DNA from: an uncultured Colwellia sp.
GTDB lineage: Bacteria; Pseudomonadota; Gammaproteobacteria; Enterobacterales; Alteromonadaceae
Length of the DNA stretch: 64,000 nt
NCBI GenBank assembly: GCA_913058145.1
Contig: CAJXQM010000009.1
Location: forward strand, 1 to 64,000
Reading direction: 5' to 3'
The notes beneath the pieces are model-generated. The model was not told where the DNA came from, did no database searches, and saw only the letters and a list, made by a program, of their open reading frames with translations. Shown piece after piece: positions 41,626-58,571 of this stretch (its first letter is position 1; the number at the start of each line of letters is the position of its first letter). A program made the position numbers and the translations under genes.

Positions 41626-43596
41626 ATGTTTAATATTACTCATGTAAATAAAAAGTCGCTAAAGCTTTCATTCATTGCTTTTATAACGGCAACGGTACTA
41701 AATATAGCGCATGCTGCTTCAAGTAACATAGCCTATCAAGGTGTCGCTTTTAACAATGGTGTAATAGTGGCTTCAATGCCTATCGCTTTAAAATTTACTA
41801 TATTAGGAAGTGATGGTACGACTATTGTGTATCAAAAAACCCCTCAAGCCCAGGTAACTACAACGGATAAAGGTTTTTTCTCTCACCCAATAGGAAGTGG
41901 TACTCGAACAGCAGGTGCTGCAAGTTATGGTGTGATAGTTTGGGCAGATGGTTATAAACTTAAGGTAGAAGTTGATTATGCAAATGGCACAACTTACACC
42001 GACTTAGGTATTGAAGAGTTCACTTCAAGTGTGTATGCACATAAAGCTACTAATGCTACTAATGCAGGTAAAGTCTATTCTTCAGGAGAGGGTGTTGTAA
42101 ATGCTATTAGGTACTTAACTTTTATAGAAAATGTAAATGACGCCTATTACACACCCCATATGGATAGTGGTTTGCAATATAATCCCGCAACACAAGTTTT
42201 GACTACAACTAATTTTACTGGAGCTTTAACTGGAAATGCAGCAACGGCAACAAAATTAGCCGCAACTAAAACGATAGATATCACAGGAGATATAACAGCT
42301 ACTGCTGTTGCTTTTGATGGTTCATCAAATATAGCTATATCTGCGGCTGTAAATAATGACTCACATACCCACACAGGTAGTACAATTAGCAGTCTTGCGG
42401 GTACAGATATCACAACTGGTACAATCTCTGATGCTAGATTACCCGCAACTATTTCTTCTAATATAACGGGAAATGCTGCAACCGCTACAACCACTACAAC
42501 AGCAACAACTGCTAACCAAGCCTCACGGTTATTCATCTACAATGATGATACGGGAGATACAAATAATCCAATACTCTTTACAGCTACTACTAACAGTGGA
42601 TACAAGGATATATTTGAAGACTCCGCTTTGTATTTTGACAATACGAGTAATAGATTGTACTCAACTTCGTTTTCTGGTTCGTTAATTGGAAACGCTTCAA
42701 GTGCAACTGCTTTAGCAGCTAATCCAGCAGATTGTGCTGCCGGGCTGTTTGCAACAGCAATAAATGCTAGCGGTACTTTAACTTGTACTGCTCAGAGAAC
42801 TATTACTGATAGTATATCATCATCATCTTCAACTATAAGCGCTTCGGCAACAGCAGTGAAAAAAGCCTACGACAAGGGGAATCACACACACCCATATCTT
42901 TCTACAGGTGGAGGAACAGTTAGTGGATCGTTAACAATTAATGGTCAATTTAGCAAAAGTGTAGCTGGTTATTACTACTATTCAAGAGATTTGGAAGAAC
43001 AATCAAATATACCCTTCAGTACAGGTGCTTCAACTGCGTCCGAGAATACTACTGCCATTTATACATCTTTATATGCAGCGTATGCTATCGTTGCCGATGC
43101 TTTTGTGGCTCCATCAGATAAAAGAATAAAAAAAGATATAACTCCACTTGAAAATTCACTAGATGCCATCAATAAATTAAATCCTGTAACTTATATAAAA
43201 AAAGATACATTTGCTCATAATGGTAGACTAGAAACTGGTTTTATTGCACAAGAGGTTAAAGAGATACTACCATCAGCAGTGAGCATAGGAAAAGGGGATA
43301 TACCAGTTCTTAAAACTGTAAATGAGATGAGCTTTGAAGATGGTGTAAAGTATACAATCCAAATCACAAAAGATGGTGAAAATGAAAAGCAAGACTACAT
43401 AGGTGGTGAAGAACTCCCTGAGGGTGAAATCTATGTGATAAGTAAAGAAGTTGACGACTTTCACTCTATAGAGTATGGCGTACTTTATACGCATGCTATA
43501 AAAGCTATCCAAGAGCAACAAGAACAAATCAAGGCCATGCAAGTAGAGTTAACAGCGCTGAAAACCAGGCTAGACTCGAAAGTTCAAAACCAATAA
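41626..43596 (+). CDS. secreted tail-fibre-like protein with C-terminal S74 self-cleaving chaperone
   Basis: A 656-residue exported protein (signal peptide to AHAAS, about residue 32). The body is rich in Thr/Ala/Ser/Asn and has repeats such as FTGALTGNAATATKL, SSNITGNAATATT and a collar-like HTHPYLSTGGGTVSGSLTIN, which are typical of phage tail fibres. The C-terminal ~160 residues form a peptidase S74 intramolecular chaperone domain: SDKRIKKDITPLENSLDAI starts at S497, the predicted self-cleavage site with its Ser-Lys dyad, then GFIAQEVKEILPSAV and a final trimeric coiled coil (IKAIQEQQEQIKAMQVELTA). It probably forms a trimeric surface fibre. The giant gene starts 10 bases later. There are no phage structural genes around it. 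Confidence 0.85.
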   Translation: MFNITHVNKKSLKLSFIAFITATVLNIAHAASSNIAYQGVAFNNGVIVASMPIALKFTILGSDGTTIVYQKTPQAQVTTTDKGFFSHPIGSGTRTAGAASYGVIVWADGYKLKVEVDYANGTTYTDLGIEEFTSSVYAHKATNATNAGKVYSSGEGVVNAIRYLTFIENVNDAYYTPHMDSGLQYNPATQVLTTTNFTGALTGNAATATKLAATKTIDITGDITATAVAFDGSSNIAISAAVNNDSHTHTGSTISSLAGTDITTGTISDARLPATISSNITGNAATATTTTTATTANQASRLFIYNDDTGDTNNPILFTATTNSGYKDIFEDSALYFDNTSNRLYSTSFSGSLIGNASSATALAANPADCAAGLFATAINASGTLTCTAQRTITDSISSSSSTISASATAVKKAYDKGNHTHPYLSTGGGTVSGSLTINGQFSKSVAGYYYYSRDLEEQSNIPFSTGASTASENTTAIYTSLYAAYAIVADAFVAPSDKRIKKDITPLENSLDAINKLNPVTYIKKDTFAHNGRLETGFIAQEVKEILPSAVSIGKGDIPVLKTVNEMSFEDGVKYTIQITKDGENEKQDYIGGEELPEGEIYVISKEVDDFHSIEYGVLYTHAIKAIQEQQEQIKAMQVELTALKTRLDSKVQNQ

Positions 43597-43605
43597 GGCA
43601 AGAAC

Positions 43606-46600
43606 ATGAAGTTTTTTAAACTTTTAGTCTTTGTTTTATTGAGTATTCAATGTGCAAATGCGGCTGAAACGGCATCCTTTCAAATAGGTTCACTCTCAGG
43701 TACAAGTACAACAAATGGTGGAGTACAAGTACTTTATGCAAGTACTTCAAATATTGGTGTGTACAGTAGTGGCACCAGTACTATATACCCTTCATTATTA
43801 GGTTTAGCATTAGGACCTAGTATTGTCATCTCTAGTGATGGAGCAGAGGCTACTGCTACCGTTAGCTCTGCTGAAAATCAAACAGTTGTTACAACAGTGA
43901 ATATTGTTAACGCATCAGGAACAGTCACTTATGCTTTAAGTGGCGTAGATGCAGCCAGCTTTAGTGTAGACAATAATGGTGTTATAACCTTTACTGCGAA
44001 TCCAAATTATGAAATAAAATCATCCTATAGTGTTACGGTAACAGCCACTGATGATGGAACAAACACCTCAGATTCACAAGTTATCACCGTTAATATTACT
44101 AATGTCAATGAAGCACCAAGCTTTGATGACAGCGGTACAACAACAGCAACCGAAAACACCTTGTACACATATGCCCCTGCGGTAAGTGATATAGATGGTG
44201 ATAAAACAGAACTTACTGCGAATACCTTGCCCAATTGGTTAAGCATAGTGCAGACGTCAGGCGACGTGGGTATAATTACAACAGTTGCGGGAACGGGCTC
44301 CCCAATTAATAGTGGCGATGGCGGTGCAGCAACCAGTGCAGGATTAAATACGCCAGACTCTGTAGCAGTAGATGCAACAGGTAATATTTATATTTTAAGT
44401 AACTATACAATACGCAAAATTGCTTTAAATGGCACTATAACCACGATTGCAGGCACAGGAATACAAGGTAGTACAGGTAATGGGGGGGCAGCCACATCGG
44501 CAAATATCTCTTCTGGCAATATTGCTGTTGATAGTCAAGGTAATGTTTATCTTGCCGAGCTTACAACCCATGTTGTTCGTAAAATTAGTACCAATGGCAC
44601 TATAACTATTTTCGCTGGTGATGGTACAGGTTCAAATACAGGTGATGGCGGGCAAGCGACTTCGGCCACGGTTCAATATCCTTCTAGTATTGCGATTGAT
44701 ATCAATGACAATGTCTATATTGGTACTTTTTCTTATGTAGTGAGAAAAGTAAATACCAGTGGAGTGATCAGTACTGTTGCTGGTTCAGGTGCTTTTGGTG
44801 ACAGTGGTGAAGGAGGCCTTGCAACGAATGCAGCGCTTAGTATTATGTCAGATATTGCTGTTGATAATGAGGGTAACCTTTATATTGCTGACATTATGTT
44901 TGGCAAACTTAAGAAAGTAGATAGCAGTAATAATATTTCTACCATACTTGAAGGCGACGACTTTAGAAACGCAAGAAGTATTGTTGTTGATAGTATTGGT
45001 AATGTTTATTTTAGTGTGACCAATGATCATCAAATAAAAATGTTATCTACTGAAGGAAGCGTTTCTCTTGTTGCAGGCATAGGTATTCCTGAATCTTTTG
45101 GTGATGGAGTTTCTGCAACAGACGCTGGTTTAAATAAACCAACGGGCTTAGCGCTTGATAAAAGTCAAAACTTATACATTGCAGACTCTAAAGGTCATTT
45201 GCTGAGAAAAGTTACCTTTGATAATGCTTACGCTATTCAGGGGACGCCAACTGAGGCAGGCGTTTATGATGTTGATCTTACTTTAAGTGATGGTGAGTTA
45301 ACGGATACGCAAAGCTACCAAATTACCGTGGCAAATGTGAATGATGCACCAATACTAGAATCAAGCGCTTATGTAGTGAGTGAAAGTAGTTTAGTGGGGG
45401 ATTCTGTTGGAATTATTCAAGCGTATGATGAAGATGGCGTACCACCAAGCCTAGCGATATCAGGCGGTGAAGTATTAAGTTACGCCATAGTGTCAGGTAA
45501 TACCAACAGTGACTTTGCACTGAACACTGCAACAGGTGAAATTACCGTCGACAATGCGTTAGATATAGCGACAACTGCTAATTACTCCCTTGTTATCACC
45601 GCGACCGATGATGATAATTTATCATCACAAAACACTATTTATATTACAATTTCAGAACGAGATGCCCCCCCAGTTACTGTGAACGATACTATTGTTGTGA
45701 ATGAAGATACCGATGCGGTAGTGAACCTCGTCAGTAATGATACAGACACGAATGATAATATTAACCCTTCAAGTATTACCATTGTTACACCACCAACTTT
45801 TGGTAGTGTGGTAATAAATAGTGGTGGCAATATTATTTACACGCCTAACCCTGATTTTTATGGTGCTGACGCTTTTACCTATACGGTATCAGACTATACG
45901 TTGTTAAAATCAAACGAGGCAACTGTATCTATTGTGGTTAATAACGTAAATGATGCACCCGTTGCTACATCTGAAACGGCGTTTATGTCATTTACTGTTG
46001 AAGATGTTGAATTACTGCAACCGCTTGTTGCGTTTATAACAGATGCTGATGGCATAGCTGATATTAGTAGTTATGTTATTGATACCAACACAGTAAATGG
46101 TTCATTAACGCTAAATGGAAATTTAGTAATATACAACCCAGCTCCTAATTTTTATGGCATCGACAGTTTTACGTTTCATGCGGTAGATGCGAGCGGTGCT
46201 GTTTCAAATATTGCTAGGGTTAATATTAATATTGCTGAGGTTAATGATATTCCAATCGCGTTAGCCGATAGTGCTACTACTGCAGAAGATACGTCTAAAA
46301 TTATAGATGTTCTGGCAAATGATAGTGATCCAGACGGAACACTAGATACCACGACTGTTGAGCTATTTAATCCCCCGACACACGGAACAGTTGTTGTTGA
46401 GGGGAATGGCTCTATTACTTATACCCCGGATGCAAATTGGTACGGAACAGACTGGTTTAGTTATAACGTTCAGGATGACGGATTAGTTTCAAGTGGTGGT
46501 GCTGCAGGTAAATTAATATCAAATGATGCTGTGGTGGTAATTACGGTAACTCAAGACAACGATGCACCTATTGCAGTGGATGACAGTTTTACTGTCAGTG

Positions 46601-49600
46601 AAGATAGTTTAGCCGCTATAGGGTTACACTTTAATGATAGTGATGTAGACAACGCGCTGTCAGGCACAAATATAACCATTTTAACCCAACCTGCTAGTGG
46701 CATTGTCACTCAAATGAGTAACGGTTTTGTATTATACATACCAACAACAGACTATATTGGTGTCGATAGTTTTACTTATCTCATTTCTGACGGGACATTG
46801 GATAGCGCTACTGCAACAGTTAACTTAACAGTGACTAACACTAACGATACACCAACCATTGGCGGAACCCCTGCCATCACGGTTGCTGAAGATAGCACTT
46901 ATAGCTTTATTCCAACAGCGAGTGATACCGATATTGGTGATGTGCTGAGTTTTGGTATTATCAATAAACCGAGTTGGGCGAGTTTCAATAGCAGCTCAGG
47001 TGATATTAGTGGAACACCAAGGAACAGTGATGTGGGTGTTTACCCCAATATAATCATTACGGTCAGCGATTTAGGGTCATTATCGAATGACTTAACGGCG
47101 TTTAGTATTACCGTCATCAACGTGAATGACGGACCAGTTATTTCAGGAGCCCCTGCCAGTAGCGTAATAGAAGATACGATTTATAGCTTTACACCAACGG
47201 CATCTGATCCCGATGGCGATAAATTAACCTTTAGTGTGACTGGTTTACCTAGCTGGGCGAATTTTAATGCTAGCACCGGCGCGATCACGGGCACGCCGCT
47301 CAATACTGATGTCGGTGTTTATCCCAATGTGATTATTACAGTCAGTAGTTTAGGATCACTCTCGAATGTCTTAGCGACGATTAGTATTACCGTTCTTGCG
47401 GATACTGATGGTGACGGAATACCTGATTCTATAGATTTGGATGACGATAATGATGGTTTTTCAGATACTTTTGAAGGAAGTGGTGACCTAGACGGTGACG
47501 GAATTCCAAATAGCTTAGATACAGACTCAGATGGAGATGGCATCACAGATTCAGATGAAGGCGCTGTCGATACCGATGGTGATGGTAAGCCGAATTATTT
47601 GGATCTTGATTCAGATGGCGATGGTATTTCAGATGCTATTGAAGGAAATAGTGACACTGATGGTGATGGTGTGGCTGATTATTTGGATACTAGTACCGAC
47701 GAAGATGACGATGGTATTCCTGACATTATTGAGGGTACCAACGATAGTGATAATGATGGTATTGCGGATTACCTTGATAGTGATAGCGATAATGATGGTA
47801 TCCCGGATACTATGGAGTCTAAAGTTAGCGGTGTCGACACGGATAACGATGGTATTGATGATAGTTATGATGTTGATGAAACCGGCGGAATAGATATAAA
47901 TAATGATGGTATCGACGACGACGTTAGTGCTCAAGACAGTGATAGTGATGGCATTGCTAATCGTTTAGATATTGATAGCGATAATGATGGTATCCCCGAT
48001 GTTATTGAAGCATTTTTACGAAAAAACAATATCGACAACATTAATGCCTTTGCTGTCTCTCATACCTCTAAATCCAACTCTCGACTCGGAAAAGCTAAAG
48101 ATACTCTGTTACAGCTAAGCGATCTTGACAATGATGGTATTGTAGATTACTTAGACCTCGATAGTGATAACGATGGTATTAGCGACACAGCTGAATCGGG
48201 TTTAAGTGGTGTCGACTCTGATAATGATGGCATTGATGATAGTTATGATGTTGATTCTACTTTTGGAATTGATCTTAATAATGATGGTATTGATGATAAT
48301 GTCACTGTTTTTGATACAGATTTAGATAACATTCCTGACTTGCATGATCTTGATAGTGATAATGACAGTTTGTTTGATACAGAAGAAGCTAGAGTCGCAG
48401 ATGAAAATCGTAATGCACTTGCCGACATTTCTGGCCCACTGATAGAAGTACCAATAGATAGCGACGGTGACGGTTTAGCCGATTTTAGAGATCTTGATAG
48501 TAATAATGACGGTATCAATGATATAGATACTGCACCATACGCAAGCTTAGACGCTGATAATGATGGTCAGATAGATATCACCTTTGACTTTGATAGAGAT
48601 GGTATTGATGATTCTCAAGACACATTGCCTGAAGTACACGGTACTACGGTTATAAATCAAGACCAAGATAATGATGGTATTTCGGATATGACCGAAGGGT
48701 TCGCTGATTCTGATTTAGACACTGTTGCCGATTACCTAGACAAAGATAGTGATAATGATGGTTTGTCTGACGCATTTGAAACAGATCGTCCTGAACCTTA
48801 CGGTTTAGATAGCGATTTTGATGGTATCGATGATGTTTATGATGTTGATTTAACCGGCGGCATTGATCAAAACTTAGATGGTATTGATGACCAATTTGTT
48901 GAAGTTGATACGGATTTGGATGGACTGGCTGATTACCTAGATACGGACAGTGATAATGATGGTATCAGTGATACAGTTGAGCAAATATTAGTCAACTTAT
49001 CTAACAGTGATGCTAACAATAATGGTATTGATGATGTTGTAGATGTCGATGTGACAGGTGGACTGGATCAAAATAGTGATGGGGTTGATGATTCAGTATT
49101 AAATATTGATGATTTTGATTTTGATGGTTTGCCTAATTTCAGAGATCTTGACAGTGACGGAGATACTATCTCAGACAGTGTAGAAGGAACCATTGATAAT
49201 GATGGTGATGGTTATCCAAATTATCTAGATGTTGATAGTGATGGAGATGGCATCTTAGACAGTGAAGAAGGAATCATTGATAGTGATGGTGATGGTATTA
49301 GCAACTATCTAGATATAGATAGTAACGGAAATGGTATTTCAGATAGAGATGAAAATGGTGACTTTAATGGTGATGGTATACCTGACTATATACAAGCTGG
49401 TGGTGTCGTGAAAACAGGCACCTCGGGTGCTGGATCAAACGATATATGGTTGCTTTTAGGCATAGCTGGAATTGTGGTACTAAGAAATCGTCGTCGCTCA
49501 AGTCAAATTTTCATCTTGGCTACATCACTCGTTATTTTTAATGTACAAGCTAACGAATCTTGTGAATTTACCCAAATTATCGATAAAAAAGAATGTTGGT

Positions 49601-50082
49601 ATTTAGGTGGAGGATTAGGCTATTCAAATCTTAAGCTTGATACAAATGGTTCTGCATGGCGTGTTAGTGATAAAAATGTTCTTGCTTACAAAGTATTTGC
49701 CGGGTTTACATTTACCGAACATTTATTTGCAGAAATGAGTTATGAAGACTTAGGTAGCGTATCACTAAATAATTTAAACCCAGCAATTACTAACACCTTG
49801 AATGTTGGTTATTCATTATTCGGTGCAAATGTTGGATATTTTTTAAAAAAGCATGACTCAGAGTGGAATTTATATGCAAAAAGTGGTGTCGCATTTTTAG
49901 ATACCGAAACTAGCAACTACGTTGAGCAGGTGTACAACGTCCAAATACTCATTGGTACCGGAGTTCAATGGCGGTTTGATGACAACTGGTTTGTACGACT
50001 TGACCTTACTAGTTATGGTAAAGATGCGTTTGTTATTGGAATTAATATAGCCGGAGTTATTGGTGGTTCATCATCTAAATAG
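43606..50082 (+). CDS. giant surface protein: Ig/cadherin, NHL propeller, TSP3 stalk, internal sorting signal and beta-barrel
   Basis: 2158 residues. Order: signal peptide (to ANAAE, ~20); cadherin-like domain (~85-165); first half of an Ig-like (He_PIG) domain; NHL beta-propeller (~222-535, repeats of TVAGTG...GDGG...[16 protein letters not shown] type); second half of the Ig domain ([20 protein letters not shown]); further cadherin and Ig-like domains with DAFTYTVSD and GDVLSF...ISGTP motifs (~580-1260). A long Asp/Gly-rich thrombospondin-3-like Ca2+ stalk (DTDGDGIPD units, ~1266-1930) follows. Then come [20 protein letters not shown] with NRRR (~1945-1965), which looks like a GlyGly-CTERM signal; a signal-peptide-like [15 protein letters not shown]; and a ~170-residue OmpA-like barrel. 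A rhombosortase is encoded ~8 kb away. Confidence 0.88.
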
Positions 50083-57953: not shown

Positions 57954-58571
57954 TTAGTTTTCAAGGCGTAATCTCATATGAAGCATATAAAGGTAAATAA
58001 CAGAAAATAGTAAACCGCCCAGTGCTCCCCATAAATGAGCATTTACCGCAACACTTGCTTCTATTAAGTTACTTACATCTGTACTAGCACCATAAAATTG
58101 CTCATGAGCAATTTTAAGCCAGACACCTAAAAATAATAAGTAGCCGGTTTTGTCTTTGGCATTGATATCCATTAGCGCGCCAAAAACAAAAATACCATGC
58201 AATACGCCTGATAAACCGACATATTGTATTAATGAGGGATCAAAATAATAAATACCAACACTGGTAAATATTGAGCACAATAAAAATAAATAGGTATAAT
58301 TTTTTATGCTATAAAAACGGCCGTGTAATGCCCATAGCATAAATAAGGCGGCTAGGTTTAGTAGTAAATGATAACCATTAGTATGTAATATATGCCCAGA
58401 AAAAAGGCGCCAAATTTCACCTTGATTGATCAATTGTCTTTGATATACAAAAGTTTGAGTAAATGACTCGCCTAGAAAATATTCACTAATAAACGCGATA
58501 ACCGACAGTAATGCGACTATGAGTACTACCTGAAAGTGTTGTCTAGAGAGTACTAGGGTGTTTAATTTCAT
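57954..58571 (-). CDS. rrtA: rhombosortase (rhomboid protease for GlyGly-CTERM proteins)
   Basis: A 205-residue intramembrane serine protease with six spans. Rhombosortase hallmarks are visible: GEIWRLFSGHILHTNGYHLL then LNLAALFMLW (residues ~51-80), catalytic S121 in GLSGVLHG and catalytic H179 in NAHLWGALGG. Rhombosortases cut the GlyGly-CTERM tail of secreted proteins, often type II secretion substrates. No classic C-terminal GlyGly-CTERM protein is nearby, but the giant protein at 43.6-50.1 kb carries an internal segment of this type. The start ATG 58571 lies close to the divergent DTW gene. Confidence 0.9.
   Translation of the reverse strand: MKLNTLVLSRQHFQVVLIVALLSVIAFISEYFLGESFTQTFVYQRQLINQGEIWRLFSGHILHTNGYHLLLNLAALFMLWALHGRFYSIKNYTYLFLLCSIFTSVGIYYFDPSLIQYVGLSGVLHGIFVFGALMDINAKDKTGYLLFLGVWLKIAHEQFYGASTDVSNLIEASVAVNAHLWGALGGLLFSVIYLYMLHMRLRLEN

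Follow-up and report, generated by a model that had tools for sequence, protein, structure and literature searches.

The locus examined here raises the question of whether one bacterial reading frame can encode two separately exported proteins. In a 64,000-nucleotide (nt) stretch of DNA from an uncultured Colwellia sp. (GenBank assembly GCA_913058145.1, contig CAJXQM010000009.1, positions 1 to 64,000; hereafter, the window), a giant frame on the forward strand runs from a surface-protein stalk through a sorting tail resembling GlyGly-CTERM into a second signal peptide and an OmpA-type outer-membrane barrel. A preliminary description of this DNA proposed that the chain is either a polyprotein, cut by rhombosortase at the tail and by signal peptidase I behind the second signal, or a recent fusion of two neighboring genes. 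On the comparisons reported below, we consider it quite likely that the frame encodes an exported polyprotein that these two proteases would cut into a matched adhesin and barrel.

One frame joins a stalk, a sorting tail, a second signal peptide and a barrel

Translation confirmed that window 43606-50082 (+) is one uninterrupted frame of 2158 codons, encoding 2158 amino acids (aa), with no stop at the junction, and that the chain runs, as first described, from the stalk to SGAGS, a hydrophobic span, the basic cluster RNRRR (residues 1960-1964), a second span ending in VQA, and the barrel. The features of this frame, and the protease gene considered with it, are as follows.

43606..50082, forward strand: whole frame, 2158-aa stalk, tail, signal and barrel protein (single open frame; Pfam domains)
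43606..43662, forward strand: N-terminal signal peptide, 19 residues (1-19; by eye from the translation)
44308..47396, forward strand: NHL propeller, cadherin-like, Big_9 and He_PIG repeats, residues about 235-1263 (Pfam scan)
47401..49401, forward strand: Asp-rich, Ca-binding stalk, residues about 1266-1932, with repeats that we take to be TSP3-like (DxDxDGxxD repeats by eye)
49423..49437, forward strand: SGAGS, Gly motif of the internal GlyGly-CTERM-like tail, residues 1940-1944 (translation, alignment)
49438..49482, forward strand: hydrophobic span 1, 15 residues (1945-1959; translation, hydropathy; helix in the AlphaFold2 model)
49483..49506, forward strand: basic loop RNRRRSSQ (1960-1967), common to the tail and the second signal (translation)
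49507..49551, forward strand: span 2, 15 residues ending in VQA (1968-1982), a predicted internal signal peptide with a candidate signal peptidase I site (translation, hydropathy)
49585..50079, forward strand: OmpA-type barrel (1994-2158), read as eight strands, with no peptidoglycan-binding domain after it (Pfam, AlphaFold2, profile search)
57954..58571, reverse strand: rhombosortase, candidate protease for the internal tail (TIGR03902)

The window tail has the GlyGly-CTERM order of a small-residue motif, one span and a basic cluster; however, 191 residues stand after the basic loop, so the tail is not C-terminal, unlike those that define GlyGly-CTERM. The basic loop, hydrophobic span and small-x-small site expected for signal peptidase I are likewise present, the site as a loose pattern only. 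The OmpA-like barrel that had been read up to the stop was borne out by Pfam (scanned as 49507-50079), with 44.4 bits for OMP_b-brl (PF13505; cut-off, 28.7) and 41.5 bits for OmpA_membrane (PF01389; cut-off, 21).

The junction is conserved and the fusion is old in the window's clade

Because the window barrel alone matched none of 222 candidates in the protein database at E ≤ 0.001, relatives were sought through the junction region and in whole genomes. A protein search with residues 1900-2158 found 19 relatives (P numbers; P0001 and P0002 are near-copies), of which 18 carry the tail motif, both spans and the barrel in one chain, with the junction of P0018, which lies outside the aligned part, read separately for this count. 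Since these relatives have the same junction, comparison establishes that the junction of the window frame is not an artefact. Only P0019 (1262 aa, GGGS tail, basic end) ends behind the tail and is a natural tail-only version. Within the ETxxxGxGS motif, the T and both G residues are invariant in all 17 aligned sequences, the window counted in.

In a tree of 84 barrels, the window falls in a group of eight (the window, P0001, P0003-P0006, and the loci L048 and L049) that has a support of 100/100 and in which every member is fused. The five database members are 47-51% identical to the window over the junction-barrel region, and the span 2 exit [AGVL]xA is kept in all eight. The comparison therefore supports both the two-cut polyprotein and the fusion that the preliminary description had offered, but not that the fusion is recent; by these sequence distances it is old in the window's own clade. 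The description had also pointed out that CAAATT at the junction differs by two bases from a stop-plus-start TAAATG, which is true as letters, but we give the argument no weight, since truly split relatives break at other, varied places.

Selection on the junction was assessed in six related fused pairs from the Gly motif to the exit, for which the pooled proportion of nonsynonymous differences (pN) was 0.112 and that of synonymous differences (pS) 0.456, with dN/dS of 0.00-0.31 and codon gaps in two of the six (a seventh pair, L048/L049, was saturated and left out of the pooled figures). This excess of synonymous change indicates purifying selection over tail, loop and signal, i.e., the stretch is kept as protein in this frame.

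A profile of the junction and barrel matched 108 of the 369 genomes of the window's class, taken as Gammaproteobacteria from the names in the named-genome scan, with up to eight candidates scored per genome. Among 36 same-genus genomes there was no close relative of the window barrel (eight weak matches; best E, 9.5e-7), and its nearest relatives on the tree include Kangiellaceae; the window gene may thus have been acquired horizontally. A different, shorter fused type of 691 aa (L090) has relatives spanning junction and barrel in P0021 and P0022 (80% identity) and P0023 (48%).

Both export signals recur across fused frames

The wider comparison used 50 distinct fused frames and 19 split loci, which are a sample from the matches listed and from the named-genome scan rather than a full inventory; 24 of the fused frames lack their upstream part, which falls beyond the edge of the retrieved stretch. 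Duplicates (L001, L051, and second copies in L064 and L073) were left out, as were L057 and a 725-aa frame of L095, which have no junction, and L063, a fused frame at a contig end. In all 50 frames, two or more Gly occur within the 16 residues that lead up to span 1, the short loop between the spans has more K/R/H than D/E (D/E are absent in 48), and a loose small-x-small exit follows span 2. Both spans were detected by hydropathy in 49 (span 1 of L077 was placed by hand), and the start-to-start spacing of the two spans has a median of 20.5 residues.

Fused and two-gene versions interchange

The alignment of relatives that the preliminary description had called for, asking whether they carry one frame or two genes, found both. 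Of 40 standalone barrel frames, 19, among them that of Teredinibacter sp. ISS155 (L052), are immediately preceded by a stalk gene whose product ends in a sorting tail, with 76-218 nt from its stop codon to the barrel domain; in these two-gene versions each part carries its own signal, and in one (L067) the upstream tail has no basic cluster. The other 21, of which 14 came from the genus-level search and one is L063, have no tail-bearing gene upstream.

Mapped on the barrel tree, fused and split states change 11 times, at least nine of these changes being forced by well-supported branches. With L063 counted as fused there are 14 changes of all labels (15 if it is labeled "other") and 11 between fused and split alone. 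From these changes, the fused architecture has arisen and/or been undone repeatedly. In the clearest case, two loci of one genus, L045 (genome G263; fused) and L071 (G135; split), have very similar barrels, with branch lengths of 0.019 and 0.075, and their junctions differ by a 26-nt indel, the extra bases in L071 holding, by eye, the stalk stop and then a Shine-Dalgarno-like stretch before a GTG start. Where L071 starts its barrel gene, L045 has ATG AAA in frame.

Sorting proteases accompany the fused genes

The rhombosortase that the preliminary description had placed at 57954-58571 is a clear member of TIGR03902 (173.3 bits; cut-off, 84), lies about 8 kb downstream of the giant frame on the opposite strand, and contains GLSG and AHLWG, presumably the Ser and His motifs. 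The genome as a whole thus has the rhombosortase that goes with GlyGly-CTERM tails (173-174 bits; cut-off, 84), and it encodes the type II secretin GspD. All 27 genomes with a fused gene whose tail lacks Cys (non-Cys) encode a rhombosortase over the cut-off, versus 99 of the 342 others; so do 5 of 6 additional named genomes that have a fused gene, and 25 of 70 barrel-matching genomes outside the sampled fused and split loci, although these 70 may hold unsampled ones. At L090, 41 nt separate the end of the fused gene from the start of the rhombosortase gene. Tail protein, rhombosortase and barrel are arranged differently at L093 (G347), where rhombosortase comes after a 1261-aa frame with a GGGS tail, and the OmpA-type barrel has a gene of its own, convergent to that frame.

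A second group of tails contains Cys. Tail type was assigned by eye except for ten model-scanned tails, with the atypical L025 and L045 put in the non-Cys group and L062 in the Cys group. All four Cys-type tails scanned, three of them fused (L031, L061 and L083) and one split (L029), pass the JDVT-CTERM model, which is unrelated. All four genomes with a fused Cys-type tail encode the protease MrtJ over its cut-off, as do 6 of the 27 with a fused non-Cys tail and 52 of 369 overall. In ten genomes (G103, G124, G137, G205, G239, G244, G272, G366, G372 and G377), mrtJ is found on the same strand as a barrel match and no more than 1.2 kb behind it; for example, a stalk with a JDVT-CTERM tail, a barrel and mrtJ stand in a row in G272 (L105:2-2759), and in G205 (L104) a barrel and then mrtJ occur with no stalk upstream. 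The JDVT neighborhood has been described as a two-gene target-protease pair (PMC11980579). The fused Cys-tail gene of G239 (L083) is cut by a contig end, and another contig, G239:C131, starts with a barrel end followed by mrtJ. The two pieces are probably one gene, which would put a fused gene beside mrtJ.

In the window genome, four tails other than that of the giant frame match the GlyGly-CTERM model TIGR03501 at E ≤ 10, two of them over the cut-off, and all four are truly C-terminal. Another Ca-stalk protein of this genome (L103; G000:C12:67500-72958) has a truly C-terminal GGGS tail that scores 12.9 bits, below the cut-off. Given this tail, ordinary and internal tails probably coexist in the genome.

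Proposed processing and alternative explanations

The topology, cuts and destinations that we infer would be as follows. The N-terminal signal would take the stalk through Sec until span 1 acts as a stop-transfer, leaving SGAGS periplasmic and RNRRR cytoplasmic. The same basic loop would then serve as the n-region of span 2, which would restart export for the barrel. A rhombosortase cut at SGAG|S would give a stalk with a lipid-modified C-terminal Gly, bound for the surface via the type II secretion system; for VesB, rhombosortase exposes the second Gly, the new end bears a glycerophosphoethanolamine-containing group, and type II secretion delivers the protein to the surface (PMC6219818). Signal peptidase I, cutting after VQA, would free the barrel for insertion by the barrel assembly machinery (BAM), and the double cut would leave a hairpin of about 40 residues. 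The two products may be a matched adhesin and outer-membrane barrel, as in the two-gene relatives. That those relatives work with separately signaled proteins is the best reason to think that the fused chain is probably cut. Processing into two exported proteins appears well supported by comparison, because both signals are retained, rhombosortase accompanies the fused non-Cys tails in 27 of 27 genomes, and each part of the two-gene versions has a signal.

Several observations weigh against this polyprotein. The window tail gave no match to TIGR03501 (cut-off, 15.5 bits) in the tail scan and is not among the four matches of its own genome, so that the internal GlyGly-CTERM tail first described stands for its three parts in order but not for the family model; against the MYXO-CTERM, VPxxxP, GVDTG and PEP-CTERM models, the listed matches of this tail are all below the cut-offs. 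Just two of six non-Cys tails scanned pass TIGR03501 (L090 with 16.0 bits and L092 with 19.5), L089 is just under (15.1), and those of the window, P0004 and L086 are unmatched, while the L090 tail also reaches the MYXO-CTERM cut-off (20.0). The hypergeometric value for the co-occurrence with rhombosortase, 3e-14, is inflated by relatedness, since the 27 genomes fall in only 18 families and are not 27 independent cases. G433, the genome of the fused gene L054, has no rhombosortase over the cut-off, and the co-occurrence would also follow from other GlyGly-CTERM proteins in the same genomes. All four genomes with a fused Cys-type tail encode rhombosortase as well as MrtJ, so genome content alone does not assign the protease. 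Evidence from the second exit is modest, since strict AxA occurs in 31 of 50 exits versus 42% of shuffled exits, and the window has VQA, not AxA. As for the site itself, rhombosortase needs a small P1 residue and accepts Ala at P2 when P1 is Gly and P1′ is Ser (VesB G382A, 116%), but the window site has Gly at P3, which is unfavorable since VesB S381G retained almost no activity (PMC11389362); by this analogy SGAG|S appears plausible but not ideal.

These points bear most directly on the alternative that survives best, which we nevertheless regard as unlikely, namely, that of the two proteases signal peptidase I alone cuts, since the divergent GAGS tail would be no rhombosortase substrate, and that the stalk is held in the inner membrane by span 1 or freed by GlpG or another protease. 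TIGR03501 does not recognize the tail, the P3 residue is poor, and GlpG does cut VesB when rhombosortase is missing (PMC11389362). However, the window clade keeps GAGS/GGGS, the span and the basic loop, the window genome has both rhombosortase and GspD, and rhombosortase is never missing from the 27 genomes with a fused non-Cys tail.

That the chain is not cut at all, with stalk, two-span hairpin and barrel forming one envelope-spanning protein, seems improbable to us. A single frame conserved over long divergence would suit it, but the two-gene form is frequent and alternates with the fused one, and exit motifs of the signal-peptide type are kept, if as a loose pattern. In addition, the N-terminus of an OmpA-type barrel is periplasmic, so that a stalk of about 1900 residues left attached to it would lie in the periplasm.

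Separate production of the barrel from internal translation starts is slightly less credible still. An ATG lies in or near the loop in 20 of 50 fused frames, and the ATG AAA of L045 stands at the start position of its split relative; however, a start codon of any kind with a Shine-Dalgarno-like stretch occurs there in just 5 of 50, 4 of 50 have no start codon there, and the window has only a GTG in span 1 and a TTG in span 2, neither with such a stretch. Selection at the amino-acid level through the junction is also not needed for separate initiation alone. An assembly or sequencing error that joined two genes, for which nothing was found, is hardly conceivable, and is rejected for the family, since the junction lies within a single chain in 18 of 19 relatives and fused frames occur in other genomes too.

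Returning to the two-cut polyprotein, we lean towards a general route in which Gammaproteobacteria repeatedly make a polyprotein of an adhesin-barrel gene pair, or the reverse, by loss or gain of a stop between the C-terminal sorting tag and the signal peptide of the next gene. Tag and signal together would form a two-cut export hairpin, and a 1:1 pair would be released by rhombosortase (or MrtJ) at one cut and signal peptidase I at the other, so that the route would use at least two unrelated sorting proteases.

Comparison with known systems

The FbcH cytochrome b/c1 precursor of Bradyrhizobium is a known bacterial polyprotein in which signal peptidase cuts at an internal signal; it differs from the window protein in that its products are inner-membrane respiratory proteins and no sorting-tag protease is involved. 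The closest precedent in print is MXAN_5598 of Myxococcus xanthus, in which a large adhesin, an internal MYXO-CTERM and an outer-membrane barrel with an OmpA domain form one chain; its authors suggested a fusion of two genes, proposed that the N-terminal part is processed and anchored, and likened the protein to TraA plus TraB (PMC11980579). It is also listed in a vesicle proteome as an "OmpA domain protein" (PMC4158809). The likeness lies in adhesin, internal sorting tag and barrel in a single chain. The differences are that MXAN_5598 has a myxosortase tag and was called an atypical configuration, whereas here the tags are GlyGly-CTERM-like or JDVT-CTERM, the internal signal peptide is explicit, and there are many fused and split relatives. 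The exchange pair TraA/TraB itself, a tagged surface protein followed by an overlapping gene with an OmpA domain (PMC3325183), is a split version of this layout, but the domains and tag are others, and we compare the layout only, implying no outer-membrane exchange for the window protein.

HVO_0405 of Haloferax volcanii, a fusion of two formerly separate genes with a central site that is cut in an ArtA-dependent manner (PMC7157517), is likewise a fused gene with an internal cleaved tag, but belongs to an archaeosortase system with no outer membrane and no barrel. VesB, the substrate of the rhombosortase RssP, has a Gly motif, span and basic cluster like those of the window protein, is cut there by this rhomboid protease and reaches the surface by type II secretion (PMC6219818, PMC11389362, PMC13393428), but its tag is C-terminal with nothing after it. 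Haft and Varghese described GlyGly-CTERM tails as C-terminal, with no transmembrane segment between signal peptide and tail, and the words "internal" and "OmpA" are absent from the main text of that paper (PMC3237569). Among the papers listed by our searches, judged mostly by titles and the beginnings of abstracts and with subscription papers outside them, none described a barrel behind an internal GlyGly-CTERM or JDVT-CTERM, which is no proof of absence.

The window protein would thus work like a sorting-tag protein and a signal-peptide protein in one chain, yet by model score and C-terminal place, the two defining tests, it is no member of GlyGly-CTERM, and its second export signal and barrel behind the tail depart from the C-terminal picture of that family. 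If cut as proposed, these proteins would be a widespread class of bacterial export polyprotein, rhombosortase and MrtJ would be linked to OmpA-type barrels, and a joint role of surface stalk and barrel would become testable. The few database names of relatives cover one half of the protein each, for example, "outer membrane protein OmpA-like peptidoglycan-associated protein," "putative Ig domain-containing protein" or "outer membrane beta-barrel protein."

The barrel and the adjoining gene

An AlphaFold2 model of residues 1933-2158 (14-row alignment; mean predicted local distance difference test [pLDDT] score, 74.9) has two low-confidence helices at the spans and nine strand segments, which we read as eight by taking E86-90 and E92-103 as one, with block-mean pLDDT mostly 70-94. 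By Pfam score and eight strands the window barrel belongs to the OmpA type, and both Pfam models of the OmpA transmembrane domain are over their cut-offs; a profile search of solved structures found weak matches only, to OmpA (E = 0.0014) and a porin. It differs from OmpA in beginning behind an internal signal and in having no C-terminal peptidoglycan-binding domain, since Pfam found no PF00691 in the window protein and there is no remnant downstream of the barrel. At least 140 residues follow the barrel match in 36 of the 50 fused frames, and 33 or fewer in 14, among them L083 at its contig end. In two fused frames, L064 (G332) and L066 (G069), an Ala/Lys/Glu-rich insert of about 50 residues stands between the second signal and the barrel.

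The gene just upstream of the giant frame (window 41626-43596, forward strand) encodes 656 aa, with an S74 endosialidase chaperone at the C-terminus and an N-terminus that scores 30 bits against a "mosaic adhesive trimer" model, below the cut-off of 60. We read its product as a second, fibre-like surface protein adjoining the giant one.

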